Positions 5,407 through 30,866 of a DNA stretch of 64,000 bases are shown here, piece by piece; within the stretch, counting starts at the first letter, position 1, and each line of letters opens with the position of its first letter. The notes beneath the pieces are model-generated. The model made no database searches, had not been told where the DNA came from, and was given only the letters and a program-made list of their open reading frames with translations. Origin of the DNA: Bacteroidales bacterium (GTDB lineage Bacteria; Bacteroidota; Bacteroidia; Bacteroidales; UBA932); contig JAFRXI010000013.1 of NCBI GenBank assembly GCA_017437755.1, positions 1-64,000 on the forward strand, in the 5' to 3' direction. The translations under genes were made by a program, and so were the position numbers.

Positions 5407-5452
5407 GATGTTTTAAATAATTAATTGGTTAATAAATACTTAAGGTTTATTT

Positions 5453-6928: not shown

Positions 6929-6937
6929 GGCTGCCCG

Positions 6938-9949: not shown

Positions 9950-9952
9950 ATA

Positions 9953-13462: not shown

Positions 13463-13492
13463 CGTCTGTTCATCGCCGTTTTTCCGCCGTCC
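13463..13492 (+). promoter_or_regulatory. Putative LytTR operator A (direct repeats) upstream of malQ
   Basis: Two 9-bp half-sites, CGTCTGTTC (13463-13471) and CCGCCGTCC (13484-13492), start 21 bp apart. The second ends 35 bp before the malQ -7 box, just upstream of its -33. An extra partial copy, TCGCCGTTT, lies between them. A matching pair stands upstream of the transporter at 18329. LytTR regulators such as AgrA bind 9-bp direct repeats spaced by about 12 bp, and a LytTR regulator is encoded next door. Confidence 0.5.
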
Positions 13493-13505
13493 GTCGGAAA
13501 TGCAG

Positions 13506-13535
13506 TTGCCTTTTTTATATTTTGGACTATATTTG
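13506..13535 (+). promoter_or_regulatory. malQ promoter
   Basis: TTG (13506-13508), 19 bp, TATATTTG (13528-13535): a full match to the Bacteroidota sigma-ABfr consensus. The leader is about 17-20 nt. The 11 bases CTATATTTGTCC minus its last base recur at the transporter promoter (18277-18287). Confidence 0.75.
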
Positions 13536-13558
13536 TCCGGACAACTGAACCGATAACC

Positions 13559-15994
13559 ATGATCATGATAAAGATTTCGCTGAAATACGATACCGCATGG
13601 GGCGAGAACCTCGTCCTGTCGTCGGAAGGTCGCCGTATGCCCATGAAATACCGTGCCGGAGGCGTGTGGGACGTGGTTTTTGAAGCGGACGAAGCCGTCC
13701 GGACCCTTGCCTATTCGTTCCTGGTGGAGCGTGACGGAGAGGTGATTCGCAAGGAATGGCGCTCCCATTCGGTAAAACTTGCTGCCGGGTATTCCGACGT
13801 TGAAATCCATGACCGCTGGATTGACCGGCCTCATGGCTCCGCCTTTTTCTCGTCGGCCTTTACCAAAGTGATCTTTGCCCATGCTTCCGGGAAGGAACCG
13901 TCGAGGAGGGGGAACCTTACCTTCCGGGTAACCGTTCCGGAGGTCAGGAGGAACCAGGTGGTGGCCGTCGCGGGAAGCGGCGACAAACTGGGCTGGTGGA
14001 ACAGGTTCCATCCGCTCTTCCCGGCCGGTTTCCCCACGTGGGAACTGACCGTACATGCCAAGGAAGCATTTGAATACAAGTTTGTCATACTGGACGGTGA
14101 AACCATGGAACCGGTCCTTTGGGAGACCGGCCCGGACCATTTCTTCCCCGGAATCCAGGGGGCTGGCAAAAGGGTGGTGGTGGCTGATGCGGCGCCGGTT
14201 TTCCGGACGGTTCCCTGGAGGGGCGCCGGGGTCGCGGTTCCCGTATTCTCGCTCAGGACATCCGACAGTTTCGGTACAGGTGAATTCCATGACCTCAAGA
14301 AACTGGTTGACTGGGCAGTGGCTACCGGACAGAACTTTATCCAGCTGCTCCCGGTAAACGACACCACGATGACCGGGACATGGCAGGACTCCTACCCGTA
14401 CAACGCGGTTTCATCGTTCGCCCTGCATCCGCAGCTTCTGCACCTGCCTTCTGCCGGGGTGCGCCAGGACAAGGCTTACCGAGAGATGAAAGCCTCGCTG
14501 GAGGCTCTTCCTGCGGTGAATTACGAGGCCGTGAACAGCGCCAAGCTCCGGATGATGCGGAAATTGTTCCAGAGCAAAGGGGAGACCACCCTCGCAAGCG
14601 GGGAATTCCGCTCTTTCCTGAAGGATAACGATTCCTGGCTTCTCCCTTACGCCGTATTCTGCGTGCTGCGTGACATAAACGGTACCTGCGACTTCTCCAC
14701 TTGGGGCAAGTATTCCCGCTACAGCCGTGCGATGGCTGAGAAATTCGCGGCGGCACATTCACAGGAGGTGGATTTCTACCGCTTCCTGCAGTTCCATCTG
14801 GATGCCCAGCTGAAGGACGCCGTGGCCTACGCGCACCGCTGCGGGGTGGCCATCAAGGGCGACCTTCCCATCGGAGTGAGCCGTACCAGCGCCGACGCGT
14901 GGGCTTCTCCGGAACTCTTCAACATGGACATGCAGGCCGGAGCCCCGCCGGACGCTTTCTCCGCCGACGGCCAGAACTGGGGTTTCCCCACATATAACTG
15001 GGAGAGGATGGAAGAGGACGGCTTTGCCTGGTGGAAGGCCCGCCTCAGGAAGATGAGCGACTATTTTGATGCCTTCCGGATCGACCATATCCTGGGATTC
15101 TTCCGTATCTGGGAGATACCGGCAAAGTACAGGAGCGGCCTGATGGGACATTTCAATCCGGCCCTGCCTTATTCCGCCGACGAACTCAGGATCAAGGGCT
15201 TCGACCCTTCCGTCCCCGGAATCGCAACACCCGGGGACGGCGGCGAAACCGATGTCCTTTTCGTGGAGGATCCCCGCCGTGGCGGATGGTACCATCCCCG
15301 GATTCTGGGGGCCGATACGGTGGCGTATTCACATCTGGAAGACTGGAGGAAATCAGCTTACGACGCCCTGTACGAGGACTTTTTCTATCACAGGCACAAT
15401 GCTTTCTGGAAGGAGACGGCCATGAGGAAACTTCCGGCGCTGCTGCGTTCCACAGGGATGCTGGCATGCGGCGAGGACCTTGGGATGATCCCTTCGTGCG
15501 TGCCCGAGGTCATGGATGAACTCAATATCCTGAGCCTCGAGATCCAAAGGATGCCCAAGGACCCGAAGGACGATTTCGCCGATCCTTCCCGCTATCCGTA
15601 TTTCTGCGTCTGCGCCACCGGTACCCATGACACCTCACCGCTGCGCGCCTGGTGGGAGGAAGACCGCAGTCTTACCCAGAAGTTCTATTCCAACATGATG
15701 CACCGCGGCGGCGGAGCCCCTTGGTTCTGCGAGCCATGGGTCGCGGAAGATATTGTGGAAGACCATCTTGCATCGCCCGCGATGCTGGTGGTACTGCCCC
15801 TCCAGGACTGGCTTGCAATCGACGGGCGGGTCCGTTATCAGGGAAATCCGGCCGACGAAAGGATAAATATCCCGGCCATCCCGCGCCACTACTGGCGTTA
15901 CCGCATGCACTGCACCCTTGAGAGCCTGATTGCCGACCAGGCGCTTTGCTCCAGGATCAGGAGCATGGTGTATTCGTCGGGAAGGGGAGTCTGA
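13559..15994 (+). CDS. malQ: 4-alpha-glucanotransferase (GH77) with two N-terminal starch-binding domains
   Basis: 811 residues. The cytoplasmic amylomaltase disproportionates maltodextrins and releases glucose. Residues 1-95 and about 115-225 are two CBM20-like domains; the second reads 'VAVAGSGDKLGWWNRFHPLF' then 'YKFVILDG', the usual CBM20 strands. The GH77 barrel follows from about residue 230 (FSLRTSDSFGTGEFHDLKKL). The nucleophile Asp is in AFRIDHILGFFRIWEIP, the acid/base Glu in LACGEDLGMIP and the third Asp in TGTHDTSPLRAWW. This two-CBM20 architecture is common in Bacteroidota. There is no signal peptide. The ATG at 13559 is used; a second in-frame ATG follows two codons later. It converges, with a 1-nt gap, on the LytTR gene, and its promoter carries the putative LytTR operator. 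Confidence 0.93.
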   Translation: MIMIKISLKYDTAWGENLVLSSEGRRMPMKYRAGGVWDVVFEADEAVRTLAYSFLVERDGEVIRKEWRSHSVKLAAGYSDVEIHDRWIDRPHGSAFFSSAFTKVIFAHASGKEPSRRGNLTFRVTVPEVRRNQVVAVAGSGDKLGWWNRFHPLFPAGFPTWELTVHAKEAFEYKFVILDGETMEPVLWETGPDHFFPGIQGAGKRVVVADAAPVFRTVPWRGAGVAVPVFSLRTSDSFGTGEFHDLKKLVDWAVATGQNFIQLLPVNDTTMTGTWQDSYPYNAVSSFALHPQLLHLPSAGVRQDKAYREMKASLEALPAVNYEAVNSAKLRMMRKLFQSKGETTLASGEFRSFLKDNDSWLLPYAVFCVLRDINGTCDFSTWGKYSRYSRAMAEKFAAAHSQEVDFYRFLQFHLDAQLKDAVAYAHRCGVAIKGDLPIGVSRTSADAWASPELFNMDMQAGAPPDAFSADGQNWGFPTYNWERMEEDGFAWWKARLRKMSDYFDAFRIDHILGFFRIWEIPAKYRSGLMGHFNPALPYSADELRIKGFDPSVPGIATPGDGGETDVLFVEDPRRGGWYHPRILGADTVAYSHLEDWRKSAYDALYEDFFYHRHNAFWKETAMRKLPALLRSTGMLACGEDLGMIPSCVPEVMDELNILSLEIQRMPKDPKDDFADPSRYPYFCVCATGTHDTSPLRAWWEEDRSLTQKFYSNMMHRGGGAPWFCEPWVAEDIVEDHLASPAMLVVLPLQDWLAIDGRVRYQGNPADERINIPAIPRHYWRYRMHCTLESLIADQALCSRIRSMVYSSGRGV

Positions 15995-15995
15995 C

Positions 15996-16769
15996 CTACC
16001 TTGACATCCAGGAAAGGAAGGCGTCGGAACGGGCACGGCTGACGGTAAGGTCGGTGCGCTCTTCCACGCCTTTTTTCAGTATTATCTTAAGGCGTCCTCC
16101 CAGCAGTTTGGAGATGCTGTCTATTACGCCTTCCGCAACTATGGCGCTGCGGGAGATACGGAAGAACATGGATGGATCGAGGTTCTTTTCAATGGTGTCC
16201 AGGGACTCGTCCATGACGTAGCTCCGGCCCTGCCTGGTTACGATCCAAGAGTTCTTGGATTCGGAATACAGGTATGCTATGTCCCCGGTGTTCACGGGCA
16301 GGATCCTGTCGCCCAGGCGGATCAGGAAGCGGCTCCGGAATTCCTCGCACGCTTTTCCAAAGTCAGGTGATGCAGGTGATGCGGAGCCTGAACGGAGTCT
16401 CTCCTCCACCCTGGAAACTGCCCTCCGGAGGCTCTCCACGTCAACCGGCTTGAGCAGATAGTCGATTGACCCGGTCTCGAAAGCCTTGACTGCATAGCTG
16501 TCGTAGGCGGTGGTGATAACTACCTGGGAGGTAATAATCGTCTCCCTGAAAATCCCGAAGCAGTCCCCGTCGGACAGCTCCACGTCCATGAAGATAAGGT
16601 CTGGGGCATCCTGGCCGCGATGGGCCCGCAGCCATTCCACGCTTTCCCTCACCGACGAGGCCGTCCCGGTTATATGGATCTGCGGGAAATTGGTGGTAAG
16701 CAGGAAAACCATGTTCCTGAGAGCCATCGGCTCATCCTCTATGACCAGTGTGCTTATGATCCTGTCCAT
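15996..16769 (-). CDS. LytTR-family response regulator
   Basis: 257 residues. The receiver domain occupies about 5-120 with acidic pocket EDE (11-13), phosphoacceptor Asp62 in LIFMDVELSDGD, the Thr in VITTAYDSY and the Lys in DYLLKPVD. A short linker leads to a LytTR DNA-binding domain (about 150-255) with 'DRILPVNTGDIAYLYSESKN' and 'FFRISRSAIVAEGVIDSI'. It is read 8 nt after the histidine kinase gene, so the two form a cognate pair. Both flanking outward genes (malQ and the MFS transporter) have paired direct repeats of LytTR-operator geometry, so I infer it controls alpha-glucan use. No SusR-type or hybrid two-component regulator is present in the window. Confidence 0.9.
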   Translation of the reverse strand: MDRIISTLVIEDEPMALRNMVFLLTTNFPQIHITGTASSVRESVEWLRAHRGQDAPDLIFMDVELSDGDCFGIFRETIITSQVVITTAYDSYAVKAFETGSIDYLLKPVDVESLRRAVSRVEERLRSGSASPASPDFGKACEEFRSRFLIRLGDRILPVNTGDIAYLYSESKNSWIVTRQGRSYVMDESLDTIEKNLDPSMFFRISRSAIVAEGVIDSISKLLGGRLKIILKKGVEERTDLTVSRARSDAFLSWMSR

Positions 16770-16777
16770 GTCTCAGG

Positions 16778-18157
16778 TTATAGCAAAGGCAATGATACTG
16801 AATAGTTTCCGTTTTGAGTCACAATCTCCAGCCCTTCTCCGGAGAGGTCCATGTACTGCCGGCGTATATACTTTTGGCCCAGCCCTGTGGAAGGCCCGTG
16901 GGAGAACTTGGGGATCATCCGGTTCTCCACGGTGAGTTTTTTTCCGTTTGAGTATATCCTTATCGCGAGGGGATCTGCCGGAGAAAGGGTATTGTGCTTG
17001 ATGGCGTTTTCAATAAGCAGCTGGACGGTGCATGGAACTATCCTCCTGGCCTTGTCCTCGGCGGGCACCTCGACCGATATGGTGAACCCTTCCGGGAACC
17101 TCACCTTCATCAGGTCGGCATACATCCCAGCAAAGAGGAGTTCGTCGCCCAGCCGTACCAGGCTCTCTCCCTCGTGCTGTAGCATATACCGGTAGATACC
17201 GGCAAGCTTGTGGATGAATTCTCCGGTCTTTTCCCTGTCGCCTTCCTGGACCAGCGAATCCAGTACGTTGAGGGAATTGAACAGGAAATGAGGGTTGACC
17301 TGGTGCTTGAGGATCATGTACTGGAACTCGGCCTGGTGGGTCTTTTCCCGCTCCTTGAGCACCTCGTTCCGCATCCGGAACAGGTAATTGATCAGGTAGA
17401 GGACGGCGTAGAAGGTTACCTCGGCCAGCAGGGCGAATACCAGCAGCCTCAGGAAGTCCTTGAAAGTGAACCCTGCACGGAAGTGGAGCGGAAGGCCGAA
17501 TCCCTGGATCACCGACGCAACCGTCGAGGTGAGAAGTATGAATCCGGCCACAAGGAAGAAGGCTGCATACCGGTTGCCGGGGAACTTTACCAGCCTGATG
17601 AAAAGCAGGGTGACGGCCACCATGAAGATTATCAGGATGGAGTTCCCCAGGAATTCAGCCAGCAGTGAAGAGATGCTTATCCCGGAATACAGTCCAGTGG
17701 AGAATACTATGTCCACTGCAATCCTGAGCATGAAGATGGAAACGAAGGCAAACAGCAGCCATCCTGCGTTTTGCTTCCAAGATCGCTTTATCTCCGGATC
17801 CCCGGAATCGCCCCCGTGGAGCGCGCGGGCCGCCAGATGCATGGCCCAGCCCAGTATCTCAGTGGTCAGGAAGGTGGCTATCGGCCTGAAAACCAGTTCG
17901 TTCTCTGATATTCTGGAAAACAGCCAGGCACCGTCGGTCCCAAGTATGAATCCGCCTATGTTGACCAGTATGACGCTGATTGCGGTGAATTCCACCGATA
18001 GCCCGTGCATCATGCAGATGATGACCGTCATGGCCATGGTGATCAGGGTGAGGAGCAGCGAGTCCGGGAATCCTCCGGCGATGCAGATGACGGTCACGAG
18101 TGCATGCAGCACCGCGAATCCATGTATTACGTATGGAATCCTGCGTTTCAGTGTCAT
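16778..18157 (-). CDS. LytS-type sensor histidine kinase (His_kinase family PF06580)
   Basis: About 459 residues from the ATG at 18157 (MTLKRRIPYVIHGF); the frame extends 49 codons further but over the promoter region. The N-terminal half has six to eight hydrophobic segments, including 'MTVIICMMHGLSVEFTAISV' and 'ILIIFMVAVTLLFIRLV', with no periplasmic sensor fold that I recognise. The kinase core begins near residue 300 with 'LKHQVNPHFLFNSLNVLDSL', where the His of PHFLFN is the phosphorylated one. The HATPase part shows the N box 'LLIENAIKHNTLSP' and the glycine box 'STGLGQKYIRRQYM'. It sits directly before the LytTR gene. What it senses is unknown; a multi-TM sensor next to a maltodextrin transporter could read the carrier or membrane state (inference). 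Confidence 0.88.
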   Translation of the reverse strand: MTLKRRIPYVIHGFAVLHALVTVICIAGGFPDSLLLTLITMAMTVIICMMHGLSVEFTAISVILVNIGGFILGTDGAWLFSRISENELVFRPIATFLTTEILGWAMHLAARALHGGDSGDPEIKRSWKQNAGWLLFAFVSIFMLRIAVDIVFSTGLYSGISISSLLAEFLGNSILIIFMVAVTLLFIRLVKFPGNRYAAFFLVAGFILLTSTVASVIQGFGLPLHFRAGFTFKDFLRLLVFALLAEVTFYAVLYLINYLFRMRNEVLKEREKTHQAEFQYMILKHQVNPHFLFNSLNVLDSLVQEGDREKTGEFIHKLAGIYRYMLQHEGESLVRLGDELLFAGMYADLMKVRFPEGFTISVEVPAEDKARRIVPCTVQLLIENAIKHNTLSPADPLAIRIYSNGKKLTVENRMIPKFSHGPSTGLGQKYIRRQYMDLSGEGLEIVTQNGNYSVSLPLL

Positions 18158-18182
18158 CGTCTGCAAGATAGGAAAAAATATC

Positions 18183-18199
18183 GAACCGGCCGGCGGTTC
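18183..18199. promoter_or_regulatory. Palindrome upstream of the kinase gene
   Basis: GAACCG-gccgg-CGGTTC: 6-bp perfect arms around 5 bases, 26 bp upstream of the kinase ATG, close to a poor -7 match (TATCTTG) on the minus strand. It may be an operator for the kinase-regulator operon. Confidence 0.3.
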
Positions 18200-18211
18200 G
18201 TCGCAAAAAAA

Positions 18212-18241
18212 TCGCCGTCCGTCACTGAAAGTCCGCCGTTC
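18212..18241 (+). promoter_or_regulatory. Putative LytTR operator B (direct repeats) upstream of the MFS transporter
   Basis: TCGCCGTCC (18212-18220) and CCGCCGTTC (18233-18241) start 21 bp apart and match at seven of nine positions. The second ends 36 bp before the -7 box TATATTTG. Operator A upstream of malQ has the same spacing and nearly the same distance (35 bp) to its -7 box. Confidence 0.55.
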
Positions 18242-18277
18242 ATTCCTGCGCGTATTTATTAAAGGTAAAAGTCGGCC

Positions 18278-18285
18278 TATATTTG
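18278..18285 (+). promoter_or_regulatory. -7 box of the MFS-SusCDE operon
   Basis: TATATTTG with the same flanks as the malQ box (CTATATTTGTCC). No TTG lies 19-21 bp upstream (TTT instead), as expected for an activator-dependent promoter. A GTCGGC...GCCGAC inverted pair (18271-18276 and 18305-18310) brackets the box and start region. Confidence 0.6.
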
Positions 18286-18328: not shown

Positions 18329-19672
18329 ATGCAAAAGTCAAAACTATCGTTCTGGCAGATGTGGAACCTGAGCTTCGGGTTCTTCGGCGTTCAGATTGCA
18401 TATTCGCTGCAAAGCGCCAACATCTCCCGGATTTTTGCCACGCTGGGCGCTGATCCGCACCAGCTGTCGTTCTTCTGGATTCTTCCGCCGCTGATGGGCA
18501 TGCTGGTGCAGCCGTTCATCGGCAAGTGGTCCGACAGGACGTGGTGCCGCCTGGGACGCCGCAAGCCCTATCTGCTGGCCGGTGCTATTGTGGCCGTGCT
18601 TGTGATGATGCTGCTTCCCAACGCCGGCAGTTTCAACCTTTCCACCGCCTATGTCTTCCTGGGGCTCAACAGCGCCATGTGGTTCGGCCTGTTCTCGCTC
18701 ATTTTCCTGGATACCTCCATCAACGTGGCCATGCAGCCATTCAAGATGATGGTGGGCGACATGGTGGGCGAGGAGCAGAAGACCCGGGCCTATTCCATCC
18801 AGAGTTTCCTGTGCAACGCCGGGAGCCTGGTGGGATATCTGCTTCCCATATTCTTCACATGGATTGGAATAGCCAACGAGGCACCCAAGGGAGTGGTGCC
18901 GGATTCTGTCATCACTTCGTTCTACGTGGGAGCGGCCATACTGATTGCTTGCGTCCTCTATACATTCCTGAAAGTGAGGGAGATGCCTCCGGCAGAATAT
19001 GCCGAGTTCCACGGCATAGACCCAGCTGCGGAATCTTCCGAAAAGGGCGAGGGGCTGCTGAAGCTCCTGGTCAAGGCTCCGTCCACATTCTGGACCGTGG
19101 GTCTGGTCCAGTTCTTCTGCTGGGCCGCCTTCCTGTACATGTGGACCTATTCCAACGGTACCCTGGCCTATAATTGCTGGGGGGGGGTGACAGATACCGC
19201 CTCCAAGGCCTACCAGGACGCCGGTAACTGGGTCGGTGTAGTATTCGCCGTGCAGGCCGTGGGGTCCATTCTCTGGGCCCTGGTCCTGCCGAGGTTCAAA
19301 AACGTGAAAACGGGCTACGTGGTCAGCCTCATCATTGGTGCGGCCGGCTTCGTGAGCCTGTTCTTCGTGCATGACAAGTATCTTGCCTGCGCAAGCTATT
19401 TCCTGGTCGGGGCGGCCTGGGCGGCAATGCTGGCCTTGCCGTTCACCCTCCTGACAAACGCCCTTGAGGGAAGCCCCAGGATGGGTTCATACCTCGGCCT
19501 TTTCAACTGCACCATCTGCCTGCCGCAGATAGTGGCGGCGGCTACAGGCGGCCTTGTGATAAGCCTCGTGGGGGGCAGCCAGGCCGCGATGCTGGTGCTG
19601 GCGGGAATCTTCCTGCTGGCTGGGGCCGCGTGCGTCTCGCTCGTGAAAGTGAAAAAATCCAAAGAGCAATAA
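18329..19672 (+). CDS. MFS maltose/maltodextrin transporter (GPH/SLC45-like)
   Basis: 447 residues, about 12 TM segments. The opening 'LSFWQMWNLSFGFFGVQIAY' followed by 'SANISRIFATLGADPHQL' and 'GMLVQPFIGKWSDRTW' is characteristic of sugar/proton symporters of the SLC45/GPH type found beside sus loci in Bacteroidota. It would move maltose or maltotriose from periplasm to cytoplasm, where MalQ acts. It is the first gene of the operon that continues with SusC 21 nt downstream. A run of nine G (19179-19187) inside the coding sequence (Trp-Gly-Gly-Val) could slip and switch the gene off. Confidence 0.87.
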   Translation: MQKSKLSFWQMWNLSFGFFGVQIAYSLQSANISRIFATLGADPHQLSFFWILPPLMGMLVQPFIGKWSDRTWCRLGRRKPYLLAGAIVAVLVMMLLPNAGSFNLSTAYVFLGLNSAMWFGLFSLIFLDTSINVAMQPFKMMVGDMVGEEQKTRAYSIQSFLCNAGSLVGYLLPIFFTWIGIANEAPKGVVPDSVITSFYVGAAILIACVLYTFLKVREMPPAEYAEFHGIDPAAESSEKGEGLLKLLVKAPSTFWTVGLVQFFCWAAFLYMWTYSNGTLAYNCWGGVTDTASKAYQDAGNWVGVVFAVQAVGSILWALVLPRFKNVKTGYVVSLIIGAAGFVSLFFVHDKYLACASYFLVGAAWAAMLALPFTLLTNALEGSPRMGSYLGLFNCTICLPQIVAAATGGLVISLVGGSQAAMLVLAGIFLLAGAACVSLVKVKKSKEQ

Positions 19673-19693: not shown

Positions 19694-22636
19694 ATGAAAA
19701 GAATTTTAACCTTGGCGGCTGTCCTCCTCGCAGGAGTGTTCAGCCCTACTGTATCCGCGCAGAACGGGTATCAGGTTAAAGGCGTCGTAGTCGACGCCCA
19801 GGGACCGGTCATCGGAGCCACCGTTCTCGAGAAGGGAACGTCCAACGGCACCTCGACGGGACTCGACGGCGACTACGTGCTCAACGTATCGGGACCGGAT
19901 GCCATCGTGGAGGTGAGCTGCATCGGCTATGCCACGCAGTCCTTCGCCGCATCGGCCATGCCCGGAACGGTGACTCTCGCTGAGGATACCGAATTCCTCG
20001 ACGACGTGGTCGTCATCGGTTACGGTACCCTTTCCAAGAAGGAACTGTCCTCGTCGATCGTACAGGTTGGCAAGGAAGACTTCCTCCAGGGAAGCGTCAA
20101 CAGCCCTATGGAGATGCTTACCGGTAAGGTGGCAGGTCTCAACGTGAGCACCACCGCCGCCGGAAACCCGAACTCGGGAGCCAGCCTCCAGATCCGTGGT
20201 GCAACCTCCCTCAAGGCCGGAAACGACCCTCTGGTCATCATCGACGGCATCCCCGGCGGCAGCATCCGCAATCTGGCATCCCAGGACATTGAATCCATGA
20301 CCGTCCTCAAGGACGCTGCTTCCGCAGCCATCTACGGAACCCGCGGTGCAAACGGCGTCATCCTCGTAACCACCAAGAAGGGAACCTCCGAGATGGGCCG
20401 CGCGCACGTCACTTACGACTCTTATTTCGGTGTGAACCTGGCAAAGGACATCCCCGAGGTACTCACCCCGGACGAGTTCCGCCGTTCCCTCAGGGGCAAC
20501 GACTACGGTTATTCCACCGACTGGTACAGGATGCTCCTCAGGAAGTTCTCCTATGACCACAACCAGTACATCTCCATCGACGGAGGCACCGAGACCTCTT
20601 CCTACAACGCCTCGGTCAACTACAAGAGCGCTACCGGTCTGGACCTGGTGGATGCCCGCCGCGAATACGGCGCCCGCCTCTCCGTGGAGCAGAAACTCCT
20701 TGGCAACCGCCTGCAGCTCAATGCCGGCGTTAACGTCAGGAGGGTGAACGAGACCTACGGCGACGACGGCATGTTCGACACCGCCCTTTCCATGAACCCC
20801 ACCATGGGCGTTTACAATGAGGACGGCTCCTACTTCCAGCCTACTTCGCCCACCAACGCCAAGAACCCCTACAGGCAGATGCTGGAGAACACCTCCAACG
20901 GTGCAAGGCTCTACCTGCTTGCAACGGCAGCAGCAAAGGTGAACCTCATCCAGAATGACCGTCACCTGCTCTCCACCACCCTTACCTACTCGCTCAACTA
21001 CAACGATTACAAGACCAACTGGTACACTCCCACCGATTCCGGCAATTCCTACTGGGGCGGCTACAAGGGCCAGGCCAGCATCAACTACTACAAGTACGAC
21101 ACCCAGAACCTCGAGTGGCTGTGGAACTACACCCTCTCCTTGCAGGACCATACCGTGCAGGCAGTTGCCGGTTATTCCTGGGAGCAGTACATGAGCGAGA
21201 GCTTCGGCGCAAAGAATCAGGGCTACGTCTTTGACGAACTCCTTTACAACCAGCTCGCAGGCGGTACCGCCCTTGCAAAGGGCGAGGCCGGCATGTGGTC
21301 CGCCAAGGAGTCATACAGGCTCGTTGGCCTCTTCGCCAGGGTCAACTACAACTGGAGGAACCTCATCTTCGCATCGGCTTCGATCCGCCGCGAGGGTTCC
21401 ACCAAGTTCGGCGAGAACAACAAGTGGGGTAACTTCCCGGCCGTTTCGGTGGCATGGGAAATGGCCAACATGGACTTCATGAAGGGAGCTTCCCACATGG
21501 TCCAGAGCCTCAAGCCCAGGATTTCCTACGGTGTCACCGGACGTTCCGGATTCGGCTCCTACCAGTCTATCCAGACCTATTCGTCGCACGGTGCATATCC
21601 TTACAACGGTTCATGGGTTACCGGTTTCTATCCTTCCCTCAATGCCAATCCCAACCTCGAGTGGGAGAAGCTGCAGAGCGTGAACATCGGTGTTGACTTC
21701 GCCCTGTTCGGAAGCAGGCTCCGCGGCAGTATCGACCTGTTCGACCGCCAGTCCAAGAACCTTCTCTACGACTATACCGCTCCCCAGCCTCCGTATGTCC
21801 ACGATTCCATCCTCGTGAACGTGGGAACCACCGACAACAAGGGTGTGGAGATTTCCGTGGACTATGACGTGTTCAACAAGCCCGACGGCTTCCAGTGGAC
21901 CACCGGAGTCAACTTCTCCTATGGCGAGACCGTTCTCAAGAAGCTTTCCAGCGACCTCTACAAGGCCTCCTGGGTAGACCTCTACCAGAAACCGGGCGTG
22001 GGTACCAGCGAGTACCTCTTCCGCACCAAAGAAGGCAGCAAGGTGGGCCAGTTCTACGGCTACAAGTACGGCGGTGTCTCCGAGGCCGGTGAAATCCAGG
22101 TCTACGACAACGACGGCAACCTGGTGGACGCTTCCCATGCCGACGCCTCCTGGAAGAGGTATATCGGCAACGGCGCCCCCAAGGTCTTCCTGAACTGGAA
22201 CAACTCCTTCCGCTGGCGCAACTGGGACCTCAACCTCGCTTTCAACGGCGCATTCGGGTTCAAGGTCTTCAACATGCGTCTCTACGGCATGGGCATCCAG
22301 GGAATGAACGGTGGCGGAAACATCTACCGCACGGCTTACACCAAGTACAGTGACATCGTCACCGCCGGCGGACAGTTCTCCGACTTCTTCCTTTCAAGGG
22401 GCGACTACTTCAAGCTTTCCAACGCCACCCTCGGCTACAACTTCAATACGGAAAACTGGAAGTATGTCAACCGCCTGCGCATATACATGGCAGCGAAGAA
22501 CATCTTCACCCTCACAGCATACGAGGGTACCGATCCTTCGGCCGTCAATTCAGTGGGTCTCACCCCGAGCGTGGACACCAACGGAGCCTATCCCCTGGCG
22601 TTCCAGCTTTCACTCGGTGTAATTGCAACTTTCTAA
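19694..22636 (+). CDS. susC: SusC-like TonB-dependent receptor of the alpha-glucan locus
   Basis: 980 residues: signal peptide to about residue 22 (SPTVSAQ), CarboxypepD_reg-like domain (VKGVVVDAQGPVIGATVLEK), the DDVVVIGYGTLSKKEL linker, plug domain with 'VLKDAASAAIYGTRGANGVI', and a large barrel ending in SLGVIATF. It forms the outer-membrane pore for maltodextrins with the SusD that follows 12 nt downstream. Codons in this and the next two genes end strongly in C (AAC, TAC, ATC, CTC), which suggests very high expression. The assignment to starch comes from the neighbouring GH13 and GH97 enzymes and from the SusE/F-like protein; the receptor itself does not reveal the substrate. Confidence 0.93.
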   Translation: MKRILTLAAVLLAGVFSPTVSAQNGYQVKGVVVDAQGPVIGATVLEKGTSNGTSTGLDGDYVLNVSGPDAIVEVSCIGYATQSFAASAMPGTVTLAEDTEFLDDVVVIGYGTLSKKELSSSIVQVGKEDFLQGSVNSPMEMLTGKVAGLNVSTTAAGNPNSGASLQIRGATSLKAGNDPLVIIDGIPGGSIRNLASQDIESMTVLKDAASAAIYGTRGANGVILVTTKKGTSEMGRAHVTYDSYFGVNLAKDIPEVLTPDEFRRSLRGNDYGYSTDWYRMLLRKFSYDHNQYISIDGGTETSSYNASVNYKSATGLDLVDARREYGARLSVEQKLLGNRLQLNAGVNVRRVNETYGDDGMFDTALSMNPTMGVYNEDGSYFQPTSPTNAKNPYRQMLENTSNGARLYLLATAAAKVNLIQNDRHLLSTTLTYSLNYNDYKTNWYTPTDSGNSYWGGYKGQASINYYKYDTQNLEWLWNYTLSLQDHTVQAVAGYSWEQYMSESFGAKNQGYVFDELLYNQLAGGTALAKGEAGMWSAKESYRLVGLFARVNYNWRNLIFASASIRREGSTKFGENNKWGNFPAVSVAWEMANMDFMKGASHMVQSLKPRISYGVTGRSGFGSYQSIQTYSSHGAYPYNGSWVTGFYPSLNANPNLEWEKLQSVNIGVDFALFGSRLRGSIDLFDRQSKNLLYDYTAPQPPYVHDSILVNVGTTDNKGVEISVDYDVFNKPDGFQWTTGVNFSYGETVLKKLSSDLYKASWVDLYQKPGVGTSEYLFRTKEGSKVGQFYGYKYGGVSEAGEIQVYDNDGNLVDASHADASWKRYIGNGAPKVFLNWNNSFRWRNWDLNLAFNGAFGFKVFNMRLYGMGIQGMNGGGNIYRTAYTKYSDIVTAGGQFSDFFLSRGDYFKLSNATLGYNFNTENWKYVNRLRIYMAAKNIFTLTAYEGTDPSAVNSVGLTPSVDTNGAYPLAFQLSLGVIATF

Positions 22637-22648
22637 AAATTGAAGATC

Positions 22649-24454
22649 ATGAAAAATACGTTCAAAACACTGACTGTACTTGCTGCGGCTTCGCTTGCAG
22701 TGACATCATGCTTCAATCTCGAGGAGAAGGCCTTCGACAGGCTCGACAAGGCTTCCTTCTACAATGGGGAAGTGGGATTCCAGAGCGCTCTCGCTTCCAT
22801 TTACTATGAGGCACAGTGCCCCGTGGAGCACTTCATCTGGCTGAACGAGTGTTCCGGCGACCAGCTTGCATGGCGCATCTGGAACGAAGGCAGCTGGGGT
22901 TATGACGAAGGTGAGAAATTCGTTCTTTCTACACATACTTGGACTCCCGAGTCGGTCATCATCCGCAAGGCATGGACCGGCACCTGGAGCACCATCGGTC
23001 TCTGCAACCAGCTCCTTTACGACGTCCGTGGCAAGAGCAGTGCCGACTTCGGCATCTCCGAAGAGAAACTGGCCGCCTACATAGCCGAGGCCAGGACAAT
23101 CAGGGCATGGTCATACCTGAAGATTTTCGACATCTGGGGCGGGGTCCTTCCCCTGAACACCAAGAGCGCCGAGGAGACCGTGGACCTTCCCGAGTCCGAA
23201 TCCAAGGTCCAGGGATCGTTCGAGGCAGGCTGCAAGAGTATCTACAACTTCATTTCCACCGAACTCGACGAGTCTCTTGAGGCCCTCCCGGTGAATGACG
23301 TCAACCATATGAACCAGGCTGCCAACCGCGTCCTGAAGGCCCGTCTGCTCATAAACGCCAAGGTGTACATCGGAGAAGACCATTACAAGGACTGCGCGGA
23401 TATCTGCGAAGCCATCCTCCGCGGAGACTACGGCAAGTACAGCCTGGCCGAGGACTTCCGCGAGATATACAGCGAAGGCAACGAGAAGTGCAAGGAAATA
23501 ATATTCGCATATGCATGGGACCTTGCCAACAGCCCTGCGTTGGCATACAACATGAGGAATTTCCCTTCGATAGCCTACAACACGTTTGATATCCTGGGAT
23601 TCTCCGGCAGCCATCCCGATGCCGGCCCCTGGAACTGCGTGATCCTGGCCCCTTCGTTTGACAATTCCGGAAAGGTCCTCAAGACCGGCGGCACCGACGG
23701 CGGAAAGAGCTTCGTTACCGACTATGGCGACAAGCTGGGCGCCGTCTATGAAAGGATGAACCGCAAGGATATCCGCCGCGGACCGTTCGTCTGCAAGGAG
23801 GACAAGAGCTGGTCAGGTCTGTTCCTCATGGGCCCGCAGTACCTTTACGGCACCAACAAGCCCGCCGTGGCCGATGCCGACCGTCCCGGAGAGGACCTCG
23901 TGTACGTTGACCAGGTGGGTTCCTTCCTCGGAAAAGGTCATGACCTTGAGGTCGTGATGTCACCCCGCTGGGGCGAGACCAACTCCGGTTACAGGCTCAT
24001 CCGCTATCCCATCTACCCCGATGCCTGCGGCGTGCATTTCATAGACATCGACGATGTCCAGATGAGGCTTGCCGAGGTCGTCTACATGCTGGCCGAGTGC
24101 AACCTCAACGGTATTGCCACTTCCCAGGATGCCAAGACCCTCGTGAACAGCGTCAGGAAGCGTTACTACAACGCCGCCGACTGGGCCGAGGTCAAGGATA
24201 CCCCCGGTCCCGGCTTCACCGCCTTCGACAAGGACTGGATGCTCAGCGAGTGGGGTCTCGAGTTCCTCGGCGAGGGCGAAAGGCGCCGCACCGACCTCCG
24301 CAGGTTCGACAAGTTCACCCAGGGCCAGTGGTGGTTCTTCGGCCGCTGCTACGAGGGTTACCCCGCGAAGCGCGACCGCAAGTACGAGTGGTATCCGCTT
24401 CCTACAACGGCCCTTACCGTAAATCCCGGTCTGGAGCAGAACCCCAACTATTAA
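22649..24454 (+). CDS. susD: SusD-like starch-binding outer-membrane lipoprotein
   Basis: 601 residues from the ATG at 22649 (a TTG three codons earlier is in frame). The lipobox is LAVTSCFNLEEK. The SusD helical core includes 'YIAEARTIRAWSYLKIFDIW' (about residue 145) and 'MNQAANRVLKARLLINAKVY'. The C-terminal RagB part has 'LSEWGLEFLGEGERRRTDLR' and ends GLEQNPNY. At about 600 residues it is somewhat longer than B. thetaiotaomicron SusD (551). Gene order SusC-SusD-SusE/F is that of the sus system. It should bind the helical alpha-glucan at the surface. Confidence 0.92.
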   Translation: MKNTFKTLTVLAAASLAVTSCFNLEEKAFDRLDKASFYNGEVGFQSALASIYYEAQCPVEHFIWLNECSGDQLAWRIWNEGSWGYDEGEKFVLSTHTWTPESVIIRKAWTGTWSTIGLCNQLLYDVRGKSSADFGISEEKLAAYIAEARTIRAWSYLKIFDIWGGVLPLNTKSAEETVDLPESESKVQGSFEAGCKSIYNFISTELDESLEALPVNDVNHMNQAANRVLKARLLINAKVYIGEDHYKDCADICEAILRGDYGKYSLAEDFREIYSEGNEKCKEIIFAYAWDLANSPALAYNMRNFPSIAYNTFDILGFSGSHPDAGPWNCVILAPSFDNSGKVLKTGGTDGGKSFVTDYGDKLGAVYERMNRKDIRRGPFVCKEDKSWSGLFLMGPQYLYGTNKPAVADADRPGEDLVYVDQVGSFLGKGHDLEVVMSPRWGETNSGYRLIRYPIYPDACGVHFIDIDDVQMRLAEVVYMLAECNLNGIATSQDAKTLVNSVRKRYYNAADWAEVKDTPGPGFTAFDKDWMLSEWGLEFLGEGERRRTDLRRFDKFTQGQWWFFGRCYEGYPAKRDRKYEWYPLPTTALTVNPGLEQNPNY

Positions 24455-24467
24455 AAGATATCGAGTC

Positions 24468-26537
24468 ATGAAAAAGATATTCAGATCATTGGCAATCCTC
24501 TCAGTGTTCGGTGCCGCCCTTGCAGGCTGCGCCCCCGAGGAGATTACTTTCAGCCATGAGAATCCCGCTTTCGAGGCCAAGGAGGGAATGATCCTCATCG
24601 AGGCCATCGCTCCCACCGGAATCGTGGCCGGGGACGAGATCTACATCATCGGTCCCGCCATCGGCGACTCCGCTTCGGTGGTTGGTGTAAAGCCCGAGTA
24701 CCAGCTTGAGCAGAGCACCGAGATCTCACGCAAGTGGGGTGTATACCTCGACCCGACCAGGTTCCTGGACGGCAAGACCCTTGCCGACGGCTTCCGCTTC
24801 GTGGCGGTGGACAAGGGACATGAGGTCACTCCTCTCAACAAGGAGCCCGAGCACACCCTGAACGCCCAGACCGGAAAGAGCTACAACGTGTACATGGCCG
24901 GCGCATGGTCCAACGACTTCATCGTCCAGCCTCTCGTCGACCTTCCCGAACATCTCAATTTCCGTGTCTACATACTGGACAACAGCGGTTGGGATGATGT
25001 CTGCCTGTACATTTACGGCGACAAGAACGACCTCGGCGGCGCATGGCCCGGAATTCCCGTGACCGGCACCGAGGAGATCGGCGGCAAGGAGTACAAGTAC
25101 TTCGAGGTCGGCCCCGAGGCCAACCAGCTTGCGGAGCACCTGATCTTCAACAACGCCGGTAACGGAGCCCAGACTCCCGGTGACCAGGAACCCGTGATCA
25201 CCTTCGAGAATGCAGACTATTTCTTCAGCATCACTGCCGACGGATGCACCGCGCTGAAGAATCCCGGCATGGACAGGAAGGCTGAACTCGGCGAGATCCC
25301 CGAACCGGAACCGGTCTATCCCACTCCCGGCTACAAGATGTATGTCCAGGACGAGACTTCCTGGCCCGGCAACCTCTTCGTCCATCTCTGGACCGACGGT
25401 TACAGCACTGAATGGCCCGGCCTCGCGGTGTCTTCCACCGAAGAGATCGACGGCGTCACCTACAAGGTGTTCGACCTCCCCGGTGAAGTCAACGGCAAGT
25501 CCATCAGCTTCATCGCACATTCAGACCAGAATGACGGCGAGAACCGCCAGCAGGTTGATAACGTGAGCATCGACGGCAGCGTGGCCTACAAGATCACCGC
25601 ATCTTCGGCAGAAGCCGTCACGGCTCCCGCCGATCCCGTGAGGATCTTCCTCACCGACGAGCGCCACTGGCCCGGAAACCTCTACATCCACATGTGGAAC
25701 GACGGCGGTGTCTCCACCGAATGGCCGGGAATCTCCGGCGAGATGGTGAACTTCAACGGCACCAACTACCTGATGTTCACCGCTCCCCGCAACCTCAGCG
25801 GACAGACGGTGAGTGCAATAATCCATTCCGACGAGAACGATGGGGAGAACCGCATCGAGACCACCATGAAACTTGACAAGGACCGCTTCTACCTCCTTGG
25901 CACCCAGACTATCTTTGACGAGGCACTGGAATACAATCCTTCCAGCATCTACGTTAGGGACGAAATGGGTTGGGGCGAGAACCTGCACCTGTATGCATGG
26001 GGAACCTCCGAGATATTCGGCGGATGGGCCGGCGCATCTCCCAATGCAACCGTAAGGATGGGCGGCTACAAGTGGTACCGCTTTGACATAGCTGCGGCCG
26101 ATGCCCACAAGGAGGCCCACCTGATCTTCAACAACGGAAACGGCGGTGACGGCAACCAGTTTGATTCGGATGTCATCGAGACCGGCGAGGACCATTGGTA
26201 CAGGATAGCCGATTTCAAGTCTGAAGCCCTGCCCGCGCCCAAGGCCAGGATATTCGTGGTCAACAACACCGGTTGGGCTGATGCCGACCTTCACCTCTAT
26301 TCATGGGGTACGTACGAGGCCTTCGGCGGCTGGCCCGGCTCGGTGAGCGGCGGCAAGCAGACCGTGGACGGCAAGGAGTACCTGTACTTCGAAATTCCGG
26401 AATCCGGCATAGAGATGAACCTGATCTTCAACAACGGCAACGGAGGTGACGGCAACCAGTTTGACGCCGCCAAGGTAATCGCCGGCGAGGACGTGTTCTA
26501 CACCCTTACGCCCGGTACGGCAACGCCGATCGAGTAA
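24468..26537 (+). CDS. SusE/SusF-like outer-membrane lipoprotein with five starch-binding modules
   Basis: 689 residues. Lipobox AALAGCAPEE, then an Ig-like SusE N-domain to about residue 140 (IEAIAPTGIVAGDEIYIIGP). Five tandem modules follow, at about 165-265, 285-385, 388-480, 485-580 and 590-685. Each begins with an 'xVxDxxGW' strand and carries a Trp-Pro-Gly turn: GGAWPG, STEWPG, STEWPG, GGWAGA and GGWPGS; each later has an 'LIFNN' or 'FIAHSD' strand. The aromatic pairs in these positions bind alpha-glucan in SusE and SusF. SusE has two such modules and SusF three, so a five-module protein may replace both. No separate SusF gene follows. A strong terminator ends the operon. Confidence 0.88.
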   Translation: MKKIFRSLAILSVFGAALAGCAPEEITFSHENPAFEAKEGMILIEAIAPTGIVAGDEIYIIGPAIGDSASVVGVKPEYQLEQSTEISRKWGVYLDPTRFLDGKTLADGFRFVAVDKGHEVTPLNKEPEHTLNAQTGKSYNVYMAGAWSNDFIVQPLVDLPEHLNFRVYILDNSGWDDVCLYIYGDKNDLGGAWPGIPVTGTEEIGGKEYKYFEVGPEANQLAEHLIFNNAGNGAQTPGDQEPVITFENADYFFSITADGCTALKNPGMDRKAELGEIPEPEPVYPTPGYKMYVQDETSWPGNLFVHLWTDGYSTEWPGLAVSSTEEIDGVTYKVFDLPGEVNGKSISFIAHSDQNDGENRQQVDNVSIDGSVAYKITASSAEAVTAPADPVRIFLTDERHWPGNLYIHMWNDGGVSTEWPGISGEMVNFNGTNYLMFTAPRNLSGQTVSAIIHSDENDGENRIETTMKLDKDRFYLLGTQTIFDEALEYNPSSIYVRDEMGWGENLHLYAWGTSEIFGGWAGASPNATVRMGGYKWYRFDIAAADAHKEAHLIFNNGNGGDGNQFDSDVIETGEDHWYRIADFKSEALPAPKARIFVVNNTGWADADLHLYSWGTYEAFGGWPGSVSGGKQTVDGKEYLYFEIPESGIEMNLIFNNGNGGDGNQFDAAKVIAGEDVFYTLTPGTATPIE

Positions 26538-26599: not shown

Positions 26600-27922
26600 A
26601 TGAGAGCCCGTCATCTGTTTTTAGCCATTTCCCTCCTGCTGTCCCTTTCATGCGAGAGGGATCCGCTGCCTTCTTTTCCGGACCCCGGAACCCAGGATTC
26701 CGCATCCGCCCTTCCGGTATTCTACGAGGCCAATCCCAAACTCTTCGCTTCTACCGGGAGCCTGGGGGCCATAGAAGGACAGCTGGACCGGATCGATGCG
26801 ATGGGCTGCGACATCCTCTGGCTGATGCCCATCCACGAATTCGGTCAGAAGAATGCCGTAGGGTCGCCCTACTGCATCCGCGACTATAAAAGCGTGAACA
26901 GTTCCTATGGGAGCCTGAACGATCTTAAATCGCTGGTCCGCAAGGCCCACGCCAAGGATATGAAAGTGGTCCTTGACTGGGTCGCGAACCATACATCCTG
27001 GGACAATCCGTGGATTACGGAGCATCCCGACTGGTATACCCGGGAAGGAGGAGCCATTATTTCCCCCAAGGGAATGGGATGGAACGACGTGGCCGACCTG
27101 GATTACTCCTCGCAGGCCATGCGTTCCGCCATGAAGGATGCCATGCTTTACTGGGTGACCGAGGCGGACGTGGACGGTTACCGCTGCGACTATGCCGACG
27201 GCGTTCCGCACGATTTCTGGAAAGATGCCATTTCCACCGTACGCGGTAAGAAGAAGGATGCCATCTTCCTTGCCGAGAGCAGCAACCGCTCCTACCTGGA
27301 CGACGGCTTTGACTATATCTACGGATGGCCGTTCAAATCAGCGCTGAAAGCCCTGTTTGACGGCGGTTCGGCTACGGATTTCGTGGCGGCTGTCAATGCC
27401 GAGTCGGCGCCTCTTCCAAAAGGGAAGCACGTCATGCGCTTTGTGACCAACCATGACCAGGCCTCCGAGCAGTCGCCGGTTACGGAATACAGGAATGCTT
27501 CGGGCCTTCTTGCCGCCACAGCCATAATGGCTTTCTGCGGGGAGGCCTGCCTTGTGTACAGTTCACAGGAGCTGGCCTATAACAAGGCTTTGTCCTTCTT
27601 CAATGTCAATGTGTTGAATTGGAATTCCAATCCGACGTTTACCGCCTCCTTTGAGAAAATCCTTTCCCTGCGCAGGTCTGCGGCCTCCATCTGCACGTCT
27701 GCACCTAAGTTCTATGCGGTGGGGGATTTGCTCGCCATCTATTATGCTTCCGGTTCCAAAGGCCTGTTCGTGGTGGTTAATCCCACGGGGAAGGCCGTAT
27801 CGGCCAAGGCACCCATGGAAAGGATAGGAGACAGGGTGACGAATATGGTAACGGGAGAGAAAACCTCGGTTCCCACCATGCTGGAGATGGGAGCCTATGA
27901 ATATCGGATATATGAAAAATAG
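26600..27922 (+). CDS. GH13 alpha-amylase family lipoprotein (first of four)
   Basis: 440 residues. Signal and lipobox 'FLAISLLLSLSCERD'. The barrel starts near residue 35 (LPVFYEANPKLFASTGSLGA). Catalytic sites are all present: nucleophile Asp in VDGYRCDYADGVP, acid/base Glu in IFLAESSNRS and stabilising Asp in FVTNHDQA. The compact size, with only a short C-terminal beta domain after residue 370, resembles maltogenic or oligosaccharide-acting GH13 enzymes. It is a paralog of the gene at 29514. It follows the terminator of the SusCDE operon and overlaps the next GH13 by 11 nt. Confidence 0.87.
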   Translation: MRARHLFLAISLLLSLSCERDPLPSFPDPGTQDSASALPVFYEANPKLFASTGSLGAIEGQLDRIDAMGCDILWLMPIHEFGQKNAVGSPYCIRDYKSVNSSYGSLNDLKSLVRKAHAKDMKVVLDWVANHTSWDNPWITEHPDWYTREGGAIISPKGMGWNDVADLDYSSQAMRSAMKDAMLYWVTEADVDGYRCDYADGVPHDFWKDAISTVRGKKKDAIFLAESSNRSYLDDGFDYIYGWPFKSALKALFDGGSATDFVAAVNAESAPLPKGKHVMRFVTNHDQASEQSPVTEYRNASGLLAATAIMAFCGEACLVYSSQELAYNKALSFFNVNVLNWNSNPTFTASFEKILSLRRSAASICTSAPKFYAVGDLLAIYYASGSKGLFVVVNPTGKAVSAKAPMERIGDRVTNMVTGEKTSVPTMLEMGAYEYRIYEK

Positions 27923-29510
27923 ACTGTTTATCCTGGCGGTCGTATGCCTTGCTGCCTTCTCATGCAAGGATGACAGGCCGCTCCATCCTACCCCGTCCAA
28001 AACCGACAGGGCGGAATCTTCCATGAACGGAATCACCTATCAGATAAACGTTTACAGCTTTGCCGACAGTGACAACGACGGCTGGGGAGATTTCAAGGGA
28101 ATAATCTCGCATCTGGATTATCTGGAGTCGCTGGGGGTTGAGGCGGTATGGCTCTCGCCAATCCAGAAGGCAATGTCCTACCACGGCTACAACATCACCG
28201 ACTATTCGGCTCTGAATCCCAAGTTCGGATCGGAGGCCGACTTCAAGGAGCTGCTTTCCAAGGCGGCCGCAAAAGGGATATCCGTCTATATGGATTACGT
28301 CCTCAACCACTCCGGCAGCGGCAATTCCTGGTTCCAGAAGGCAAATTCTTCGGCATCAAGTCCTTACAGGAACTATTACGTTTTTTCCAACGATCACGCT
28401 TCCGATGAGGCGGCGGGCCGGATTGACAATTATGCCGGGGCTACTTCCCCTGGGATGGGCGATTGGCACACTTCTCCCGGAGGCGGCAGCTATTTCGCCA
28501 GCTTCGGCGGTGACATGCCCGACATCAACTACGGCCCTTACGGCCAGGCCTCATCATCGGAGACGTTCAAGGCCCTTGCCGCATCGGCCGACAAATGGAT
28601 CAAGATGGGGGTGGGCGGCCTCAGGCTCGACGCGGTCCAGTGGATATACCAGGACCAGACCGACGCCAACGTATCGTTCCTGACCCAGTGGTACGACCAC
28701 TGCAACGCCACATGGAAGTCTTCCGGCGGCAAGGGTAACATCTATATGGTGGGGGAATGCCTCTCGGATGTCAATAAGGTCACCCCGTATTTCAAGGGCC
28801 TTCCCTCCATGTTCGACTTCAGCTACTGGTGGACCCTCAAGGACCGTATAAACAGGGGCAAGGGCGACGACTTTGCATCCGTCATCGCCGGATTCAGGAA
28901 AGGTTACAAGGCCCGCCGTACAGGTTATATCGACGCTATCAAGCTTTCCAACCACGACGAGGACAGGGCTGGGGAAGACCTCGGCAAAAGCCTTGAAAAA
29001 GAGAAACTTGCAGCTGCCGTACTGCTGACATCTCCGGGTAAGCCCTACATCTACCAAGGTGAGGAACTGGGCTATTACGGCAATAAAGGCGGCGGTGACG
29101 AATATGTCCGCTCTCCCATAAAGTGGACCAAGACCGGCTCTGTCCCTTCAGCGGCACTGAGCGGCAAGGTGGACAACAACATGCTTTCGGCCTCGATTTC
29201 CGTAGAGGCCCAGTCGGCCGATGCCTCTTCGCTCCTGAGCCATTACAGGGCATTCGCCCAGCTCAGGAAGGGGACCCCGGCCCTCCTGAACGGAGAGATG
29301 ACCCCGCTCGAGAGCGCTTCGCAGGGCATCGCCGCATGGACTATGCTCTACCAGGGCGAGAAGGTCCTGGTCCTTCACAATTTCTCGTCTTCCTCGGCGC
29401 CGGCCGGCTCGTTCTCCACTGTGAAGGAGCTCATCCGCAACGGGGAAGTTACCGTGTCGGGGAAGAACATAACCCTCGGCGCATATTCTTCGGTAGTATA
29501 TAAGTTATAG
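27912..29510 (+). CDS. GH13 alpha-amylase lipoprotein, likely surface SusG-type
   Basis: About 532 residues from the ATG at 27912, which opens the signal KNRLFILAVVCLAAFSC. Cys+1 onward reads KDDRPLH: a Lys-Asp-Asp motif after the lipidated Cys is the type known in Bacteroidota to direct surface exposure. The barrel starts 'YQINVYSFADSDNDGWGDF'. Catalytic residues: Asp in GGLRLDAVQW, Glu in YMVGECLSD, Asp in LSNHDEDRAG. It has the domain-B insertion and a C-terminal beta domain. I see no CBM58-like insertion of the kind in SusG. It would cut surface-bound starch for SusC/SusD. Its start overlaps the previous stop and its stop is 3 nt before the next gene. Confidence 0.88.
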   Translation: MKNRLFILAVVCLAAFSCKDDRPLHPTPSKTDRAESSMNGITYQINVYSFADSDNDGWGDFKGIISHLDYLESLGVEAVWLSPIQKAMSYHGYNITDYSALNPKFGSEADFKELLSKAAAKGISVYMDYVLNHSGSGNSWFQKANSSASSPYRNYYVFSNDHASDEAAGRIDNYAGATSPGMGDWHTSPGGGSYFASFGGDMPDINYGPYGQASSSETFKALAASADKWIKMGVGGLRLDAVQWIYQDQTDANVSFLTQWYDHCNATWKSSGGKGNIYMVGECLSDVNKVTPYFKGLPSMFDFSYWWTLKDRINRGKGDDFASVIAGFRKGYKARRTGYIDAIKLSNHDEDRAGEDLGKSLEKEKLAAAVLLTSPGKPYIYQGEELGYYGNKGGGDEYVRSPIKWTKTGSVPSAALSGKVDNNMLSASISVEAQSADASSLLSHYRAFAQLRKGTPALLNGEMTPLESASQGIAAWTMLYQGEKVLVLHNFSSSSAPAGSFSTVKELIRNGEVTVSGKNITLGAYSSVVYKL

Positions 29511-29513
29511 ATT

Positions 29514-30860: not shown

Positions 30861-30866
30861 TAGAAT

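Follow-up and report, generated by a model that had tools for sequence, protein, structure and literature searches.

In the window analyzed here, a 64,000-nucleotide stretch of contig JAFRXI010000013.1 from the 2.88-Mb draft genome (completeness about 85%) of a Bacteroidales bacterium, a sensor histidine kinase and a LytTR response regulator very probably switch on two targets, malQ and a sugar transporter operon, through direct repeats of CCGTYCRTC placed 21 bp apart. What is known of how Bacteroidota regulate starch use concerns mainly SusR and hybrid systems. A sequence-only reading of this DNA had proposed that the LytTR protein encoded between the two promoters activates both. Comparative genomics supports a LytTR circuit at both promoters, and the position of the repeats suggests the activating direction. 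We conclude from these comparisons that the LytTR domain is the predicted reader of the repeats and that the system would control alpha-glucan uptake and processing.

The malQ gene (13559..15994, plus strand) encodes a 4-alpha-glucanotransferase of family GH77 with a CBM20 domain (Pfam; NCBIfam malQ over cut-off). The genes for the regulator (15996..16769, minus strand) and the adjoining kinase (16778..18157, minus strand) are divergent from an MFS-SusC-SusD-CBM26-GH13 run, whose first gene encodes an MFS sugar transporter (18329..19672, plus strand; MFS_1/MFS_2 by Pfam). In the regulator, both the receiver (PF00072) and the LytTR domain (PF04397) are over the Pfam cut-off, and Asp62 is invariant among 20 aligned orthologs; BtsR is its second-best NCBIfam match, far below cut-off. 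Pfam, alignment and hydropathy describe the kinase as a multi-pass membrane sensor, with several hydrophobic segments, joined to a His_kinase domain (PF06580). PF06580 is its sole Pfam match at E 0.001, with no match to 5TMR_LYT (PF07694) and none in NCBIfam, and we therefore call it LytS-like rather than a member of the 5TMR_LYT family.

All repeats lie on the plus strand, share the conserved core CCGTYCRTC and follow each other in steps of 21 bp. The malQ operator consists of CTGTTCATC (13466..13474) and CCGTCCGTC (13487..13495), and a -7 box, TATATTTG (13528..13535), lies 32 bp after the second repeat. The transporter operator has three repeats, CGGTTCGTC (18194..18202), CCGTCCGTC (18215..18223) and CCGTTCATT (18236..18244), with the same box, TATATTTG (18278..18285), 33 bp after the third. 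The letters, coordinates and 21-bp steps given in the sequence-only reading are all present in the sequence, and recounting gave 35 and 36 bp between the ends of its second half-sites and TATATTTG. Relative to its half-sites, the conserved core is displaced by 3 bp, and a third copy at the transporter, at 18194, had been overlooked. The matching flanks that it described around the two -7 boxes amount to a common 12-mer, CTATATTTGTCC, which starts at 13527 and 18277 and occurs twice in the window against 0.02 expected.

We searched for CCGTYCRTC-N12-CCGTYCRTC with at most one mismatch and found three matches in the window, all at these two sites, compared with 0.00 in 100 shuffles. The whole draft genome likewise held three matches, all at the malQ and transporter promoters. 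When up to three mismatches were allowed there were 78 genomic matches against 54 in a backward control, and loci were obtained for 30 of these matches. Among the 27 that lie elsewhere in the genome, none showed a -7-like box in the 60 bp that follow the pair. A core by itself is not rare (81 matches with at most one mismatch, 70.6 expected). Specificity resides in the spaced pair, not in the single core.

By the sequence-only reading, absence of the repeats from syntenic loci would have refuted its proposal. The check in relatives did not refute it: the repeats are kept ahead of the transporter gene and, among nearer relatives, also ahead of malQ. In a first survey of 61 genomes, strong orthologs of the regulator (best E about 1e-60 or lower) were found in 19 genus relatives. 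In 18 of them the transporter was close to the kinase and regulator on the fetched stretch; L052, whose contig has no transporter, was dropped. The pair precedes the transporter gene in 18/18 of these loci. With a broad motif read from these same 18 loci, all 18 scored at least 16 of 18, a score reached by 0/200 shuffles. A narrower motif taken from the window only was reached by 0-1 of 200 shuffles in 17 loci and by 13/200 in L050.

We then scored promoters that had not contributed to the motif. Across 151 genomes of the genus, its own included, the regulator was matched at E 1e-40 in 85 (34-62% identity in relatives) and the transporter at E 1e-100 in 97, mostly at 69-85% identity and in six cases at 43-46%. 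This wider survey gave a held-out set of 70 further transporter promoters, truncated transporter genes (G015 and G066) having been dropped. The matrix used to score them had been trained on the 18 relatives of the first survey; spacings of 12-32 were compared, and a score of 12 was taken as the cut for a transporter pair. Among the held-out loci with the regulator adjacent, the best spacing was exactly 21 bp in 49/50, the score was at least 12 in 49/50 (11.8 in the other one), and 49/50 were unreached by 100 shuffles. In a spacing control of 23 loci there were 25 pairs at 21 bp, compared with 0-2 at any one of the other spacings in the range 17-25.

Loci lacking the regulator gave the opposite result. 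We examined 17 transporter loci with no LytTR gene in the stretch read, comprising nine held-out loci, seven earlier ones and a second transporter copy in G072. None reached a score of 12 (0/17; highest 8.0), and none had a LytTR, kinase-sensor or fused match in the roughly 1 to 1.5 kb read upstream. The transporter tree shows three independent places without the regulator, and none of the three has the operator. Three held-out loci were classed as having a regulator that is not adjacent (G072, G080 and G159). For G072 the fetched copy was the second transporter, which has no operator, and the real locus (L292) has both the kinase-regulator pair and the operator. In G080 the operator is present and the stretch ends at the contig edge; G159 is taken up below. 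Separately, in two species without the regulator (L125 and L295) malQ immediately precedes the transporter gene, and the two genes may be co-transcribed there instead.

Eight held-out loci first classed as regulator-less had an operator and seemed to be contrary cases; closer reading found a LytTR gene in each, which turned them from exceptions into our strongest evidence. A direct search of all 17 held-out loci first placed in that class found LytTR matches in exactly these 8 operator-bearing loci, where the LytTR gene is condensed and the operator is kept (8/8). In seven species one continuous gene joins the kinase's membrane sensor to LytTR, with no kinase and no receiver (L283:250-1146, L284:3269-4207, L285:3029-4153, L286:2953-3897, L287:3438-4139, L288:3166-4110 and L290:3138-4079). 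The eighth locus encodes a lone LytTR-domain protein of 116 amino acids between the transporter and malQ (L289:320-670). LytTR is the sole Pfam domain over cut-off in the condensed proteins, and the sensor parts of the fusions align to the kinase sensors and share their invariant residues. In these comparisons, operator presence follows that of a LytTR DNA-binding domain encoded beside the transporter gene, condensed forms included.

Trees were built for each part of the condensed proteins. On the sensor-domain tree (84 domains), well-supported branches force three changes to account for the seven fusions; the L287 branch is very long. Three separate fusions is the simplest reading, and one gain with two reversals is formally possible. 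On the LytTR-domain tree (61 domains), the eight condensed forms all group inside the clade of cognate regulators, where they occupy four positions in the best tree, with two changes forced by well-supported branches. We think it likely that the two-component system was condensed in place about three times to a sensor-LytTR protein and once to a lone LytTR protein, with the operator kept. If so, the loci form a natural series from two-component to one-component control on a constant DNA target, and a membrane sensor could therefore steer a LytTR domain without phosphotransfer. The fusions combine membrane segments and a DNA-binding domain in one protein, as transmembrane transcription regulators do (hydropathy among the fusions was run for L286 alone). 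The condensed forms bear on the question of a two-component origin for membrane-bound one-component regulators, stated as a possibility in a survey of 9,673 genomes (PMC10269533). The Rsp regulator of Neisseria gonorrhoeae, as described in that survey, resembles the condensed genes in being a chimera of a PilS sensor with the DNA-binding domain of PilR. It and other transmembrane regulators differ from the present case, in which several condensations occur at one syntenic locus and the operator is preserved.

At malQ, a scan with the strict consensus found no pair in relatives, and the malQ operator appeared to be private to this species. The trained matrix, together with nearer relatives, overturned that view for 16 of 28. 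In 16 of 28 relatives, 15 of them picked as near relatives, a pair stands upstream of malQ with its best spacing at exactly 21 bp, and 12 of the 16 score at least 12. In the first malQ set, 13 of 29 relatives' loci were matrix-scored and the others went through the strict scan alone. A partial malQ match in G116 was left unscored. Two of the 28 cases are ambiguous, one with a partial gene start (G005) and one with a spacing of 22 bp (G110). Because the sequences are related, the 16 pairs do not count as independent of one another. For 11 of them, malQ lies on a contig other than the regulator's, as assembled in these draft genomes.

The placement of the repeats relative to the promoter was compared by scoring a -7-like box with a loose pattern and measuring its distance from the last repeat. 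At the transporter, the box is found 31-33 bp on in 12/18 training, 29/50 held-out and 6/8 condensed loci; 42-44 bp on in 3/18, 8/50 and 0/8; 52-55 bp on in 1/18, 7/50 and 1/8; and at none of these distances in 2/18, 6/50 and 1/8. The two longer distances correspond to roughly one or two additional DNA turns. Among 17 near-clade malQ promoters, the box is 31-33 bp on in 5, 42-44 bp on in 9 and at neither distance in 2, and one fell below the score cut. Three or more repeats precede the transporter in 7/18 training, 22/50 held-out and 7/8 condensed loci. LytTR activators are described as binding close upstream of the promoter, and the geometry here is near that position (PMC6193735). Because the repeats lie upstream of the promoter, the LytTR regulator most likely acts as an activator.

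The model that we consider very probable is as follows. The multi-pass membrane part of the kinase would sense a signal, and the regulator would then be phosphorylated at Asp62. Regulator subunits would then bind two or three CCGTYCRTC direct repeats, 21 bp or two DNA turns apart. Bound just upstream of a Bacteroidota-type promoter (-7 TANNTTTG), the regulator would help RNA polymerase start at malQ and at the MFS-susCD-CBM26-GH13 operon. We propose, on the basis of the targets alone, that the signal is a maltodextrin or a related sugar.

Several points weigh against this model, and we consider them together with rival explanations. The independent regulator-loss contrasts are few, and with 3/3 in agreement a sign test gives a p-value of 0.25. 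G159 (L291) has three repeats before the transporter and no regulator in 5 kb upstream; regulator homologs lie about 22-25 kb off on the same contig, and on another contig. In addition, a repressor could sit at the same place as an activator. The regulator might bind the repeats and repress, or mainly autoregulate the divergent kinase-regulator operon, since the transporter operator lies between two divergent promoters and a kinase-side -7-like box stands 33 bp from the first repeat in 12/62 related loci (18157-18203 is the corresponding stretch of the window). Autoregulation of the kinase-regulator operon is possible. As the main role of the repeats, repression or autoregulation seems unlikely to us: no kinase-side box is found in 26/62 loci, the repeats lie just upstream of the would-be -33 element, which is the activating position for LytTR regulators (PMC6193735), and malQ has a like geometry with no divergent regulator gene there in the window.

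A second alternative is that the malQ repeats in the window are a chance or decayed site and that the transporter operon alone is regulated. No malQ pair was found with the matrix in 10/28 relatives, several with coding sequence right upstream, nor in three condensed-regulator genomes, in addition to the negative strict scan. Four malQ pairs (G019, G171, G150 and G146) score 6.8-11.8, below the transporter cut of 12, and shuffles reach the score in 1-5 of 200 for G171, G150, G061 and G062 and in none for the other 12 pairs. We nevertheless consider a chance or decayed site quite improbable, given the 16 relatives whose pair is best at exactly 21 bp, the -7-like box 31-33 or 42-44 bp on in 14 of the 17 near-clade loci, and the position of the malQ pair as one of only three matches in the whole genome.

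We give almost no credence to the idea that another factor, AraC-type or SusR-like, binds the repeats while the LytTR gene is a bystander: AraC-type hybrid two-component systems (HTCS) of Bacteroides do have predicted direct repeats averaging 21 bp apart (PMC3878776), but predicted SusR sites are centered 67 or 77 bp apart (PMC3878776), the operator is absent without a nearby LytTR gene and stays where the LytTR domain remains alone or with a sensor, and its core is the AlgR site CCGTTCGTC (PMC4064291).

The activator model places the system beside several known ones, and the claim of the sequence-only reading that it differs from SusR agrees with the site spacing. SusR and HTCS also control starch or polysaccharide loci in Bacteroides (PMC3878776), and the predicted HTCS spacing is likewise about 21 bp. 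The SusR spacing is not, and HTCS proteins have AraC domains fused to a kinase, unlike the separate PF06580 kinase and LytTR genes found here. The words "LytTR" and "LytR" are absent from the main text of PMC3878776. Among the papers listed in a search of the open-access literature, none has a title or opening of the abstract that describes the use of starch or maltodextrin in Bacteroidota as being under LytTR control.

Transporter genes are switched by LytS/LytTR systems in E. coli, YpdA/YpdB-yhjX being one example. In another, BtsS/BtsR-btsT, a multi-pass LytS-type kinase and a receiver-LytTR regulator are described as switching on a transporter gene (PMC10653868), as proposed here. The present system differs in its phylum, in a sensor without a Pfam 5TMR_LYT match, and in its targets, an alpha-glucan operon and malQ rather than a pyruvate transporter. 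The 9-bp half-site of AlgR from Pseudomonas aeruginosa, CCGTTCGTC, is letter for letter a common form here; AlgR sites are described singly, from -702 to +391 (PMC4064291), whereas ours are in tandem at 21 bp by the promoter. LytTR regulatory systems (LRS), namely HdrRM, BrsRM and LRS-like Bacteroides operons, are described as using 9-bp direct repeats mostly 12 bp apart near the promoter, with a B. thetaiotaomicron example of 11-bp repeats before a TATCTTTG box (PMC6193735). The operator here has that form, with 9-bp direct repeats, a 12-bp spacer and a position close upstream of the promoter. An LRS pairs a LytTR protein with an inhibitory membrane protein and has no kinase, whereas the window has a PF06580 kinase paired with the regulator, and the condensed species have single fused genes or a lone LytTR, so they are likewise not LRS. 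The system is a variant of LytS/LytTR transporter control that uses an AlgR-type half-site, and this variant is new.

Outside the genus, perfect CCGTTCGTC pairs spaced 21 bp precede an MFS gene and its following GH65 gene in two Alistipes-labelled metagenome-assembled genomes, with the regulator in a different position in each. In another family, two genomes of a single genus (G038 and G369) have the pair, at 21 bp, ahead of MFS and a GH13 gene of pullulanase type, with no recognized -7 box. We scored 12 outside-genus loci, most of which had no transporter match and lacked a good pair close to the regulator. The pair in L321 is clear and precedes a GH13-MFS run. In L323, where no transporter was matched, a weak pair (13.7) stands 1.1 kb past the regulator and has a -7-like box at a distance of 32 bp. 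Pairs in L326 (14.2) and L331 (20.2, at 22 bp) are far from the regulator, and seven others have no pair scoring at least 12. L327, which lies beside a transporter, has a weak pair scoring 10.8. In G276, from another genus of the same family, the 21-bp pair ahead of the transporter is weaker, at 10.8. Among 74 loci of wider LytTR relatives the pair occurs no more often than background (4 in 1.23 Mb), so that LytTR genes in general are not marked by the operator. A LytTR starch switch appears to be used by many species of one genus, with examples in other families, and because the operator is definable, regulons could be read from sequence in uncultured gut and rumen species.

Downstream of the MFS gene, which also has a distant GPH-type NCBIfam match below cut-off, the plus strand encodes a SusC/RagA outer-membrane transporter (19694..22636; Pfam, NCBIfam), a SusD-like binding lipoprotein (22640..24454; Pfam) and a SusE/F-like protein with CBM26 starch-binding modules (24468..26537; Pfam). 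Four GH13 alpha-glucan enzymes follow at 26600..32912 (26600-27922, 27897-29510, 29514-30860 and 30867-32912, plus strand). They presumably belong to the same operon as the MFS transporter, an extent taken from gene spacing alone. On the other side of malQ and divergent from it, a separate glycan locus on the minus strand (2934-13413) encodes a GH3 protein, two PF10091 proteins and a second SusC/SusD pair; its upstream stretch is common to the malQ operator. An IS200-like transposase match (PF01797; 32983-33840, minus strand) lies between the GH13 cluster and a GH97 gene.

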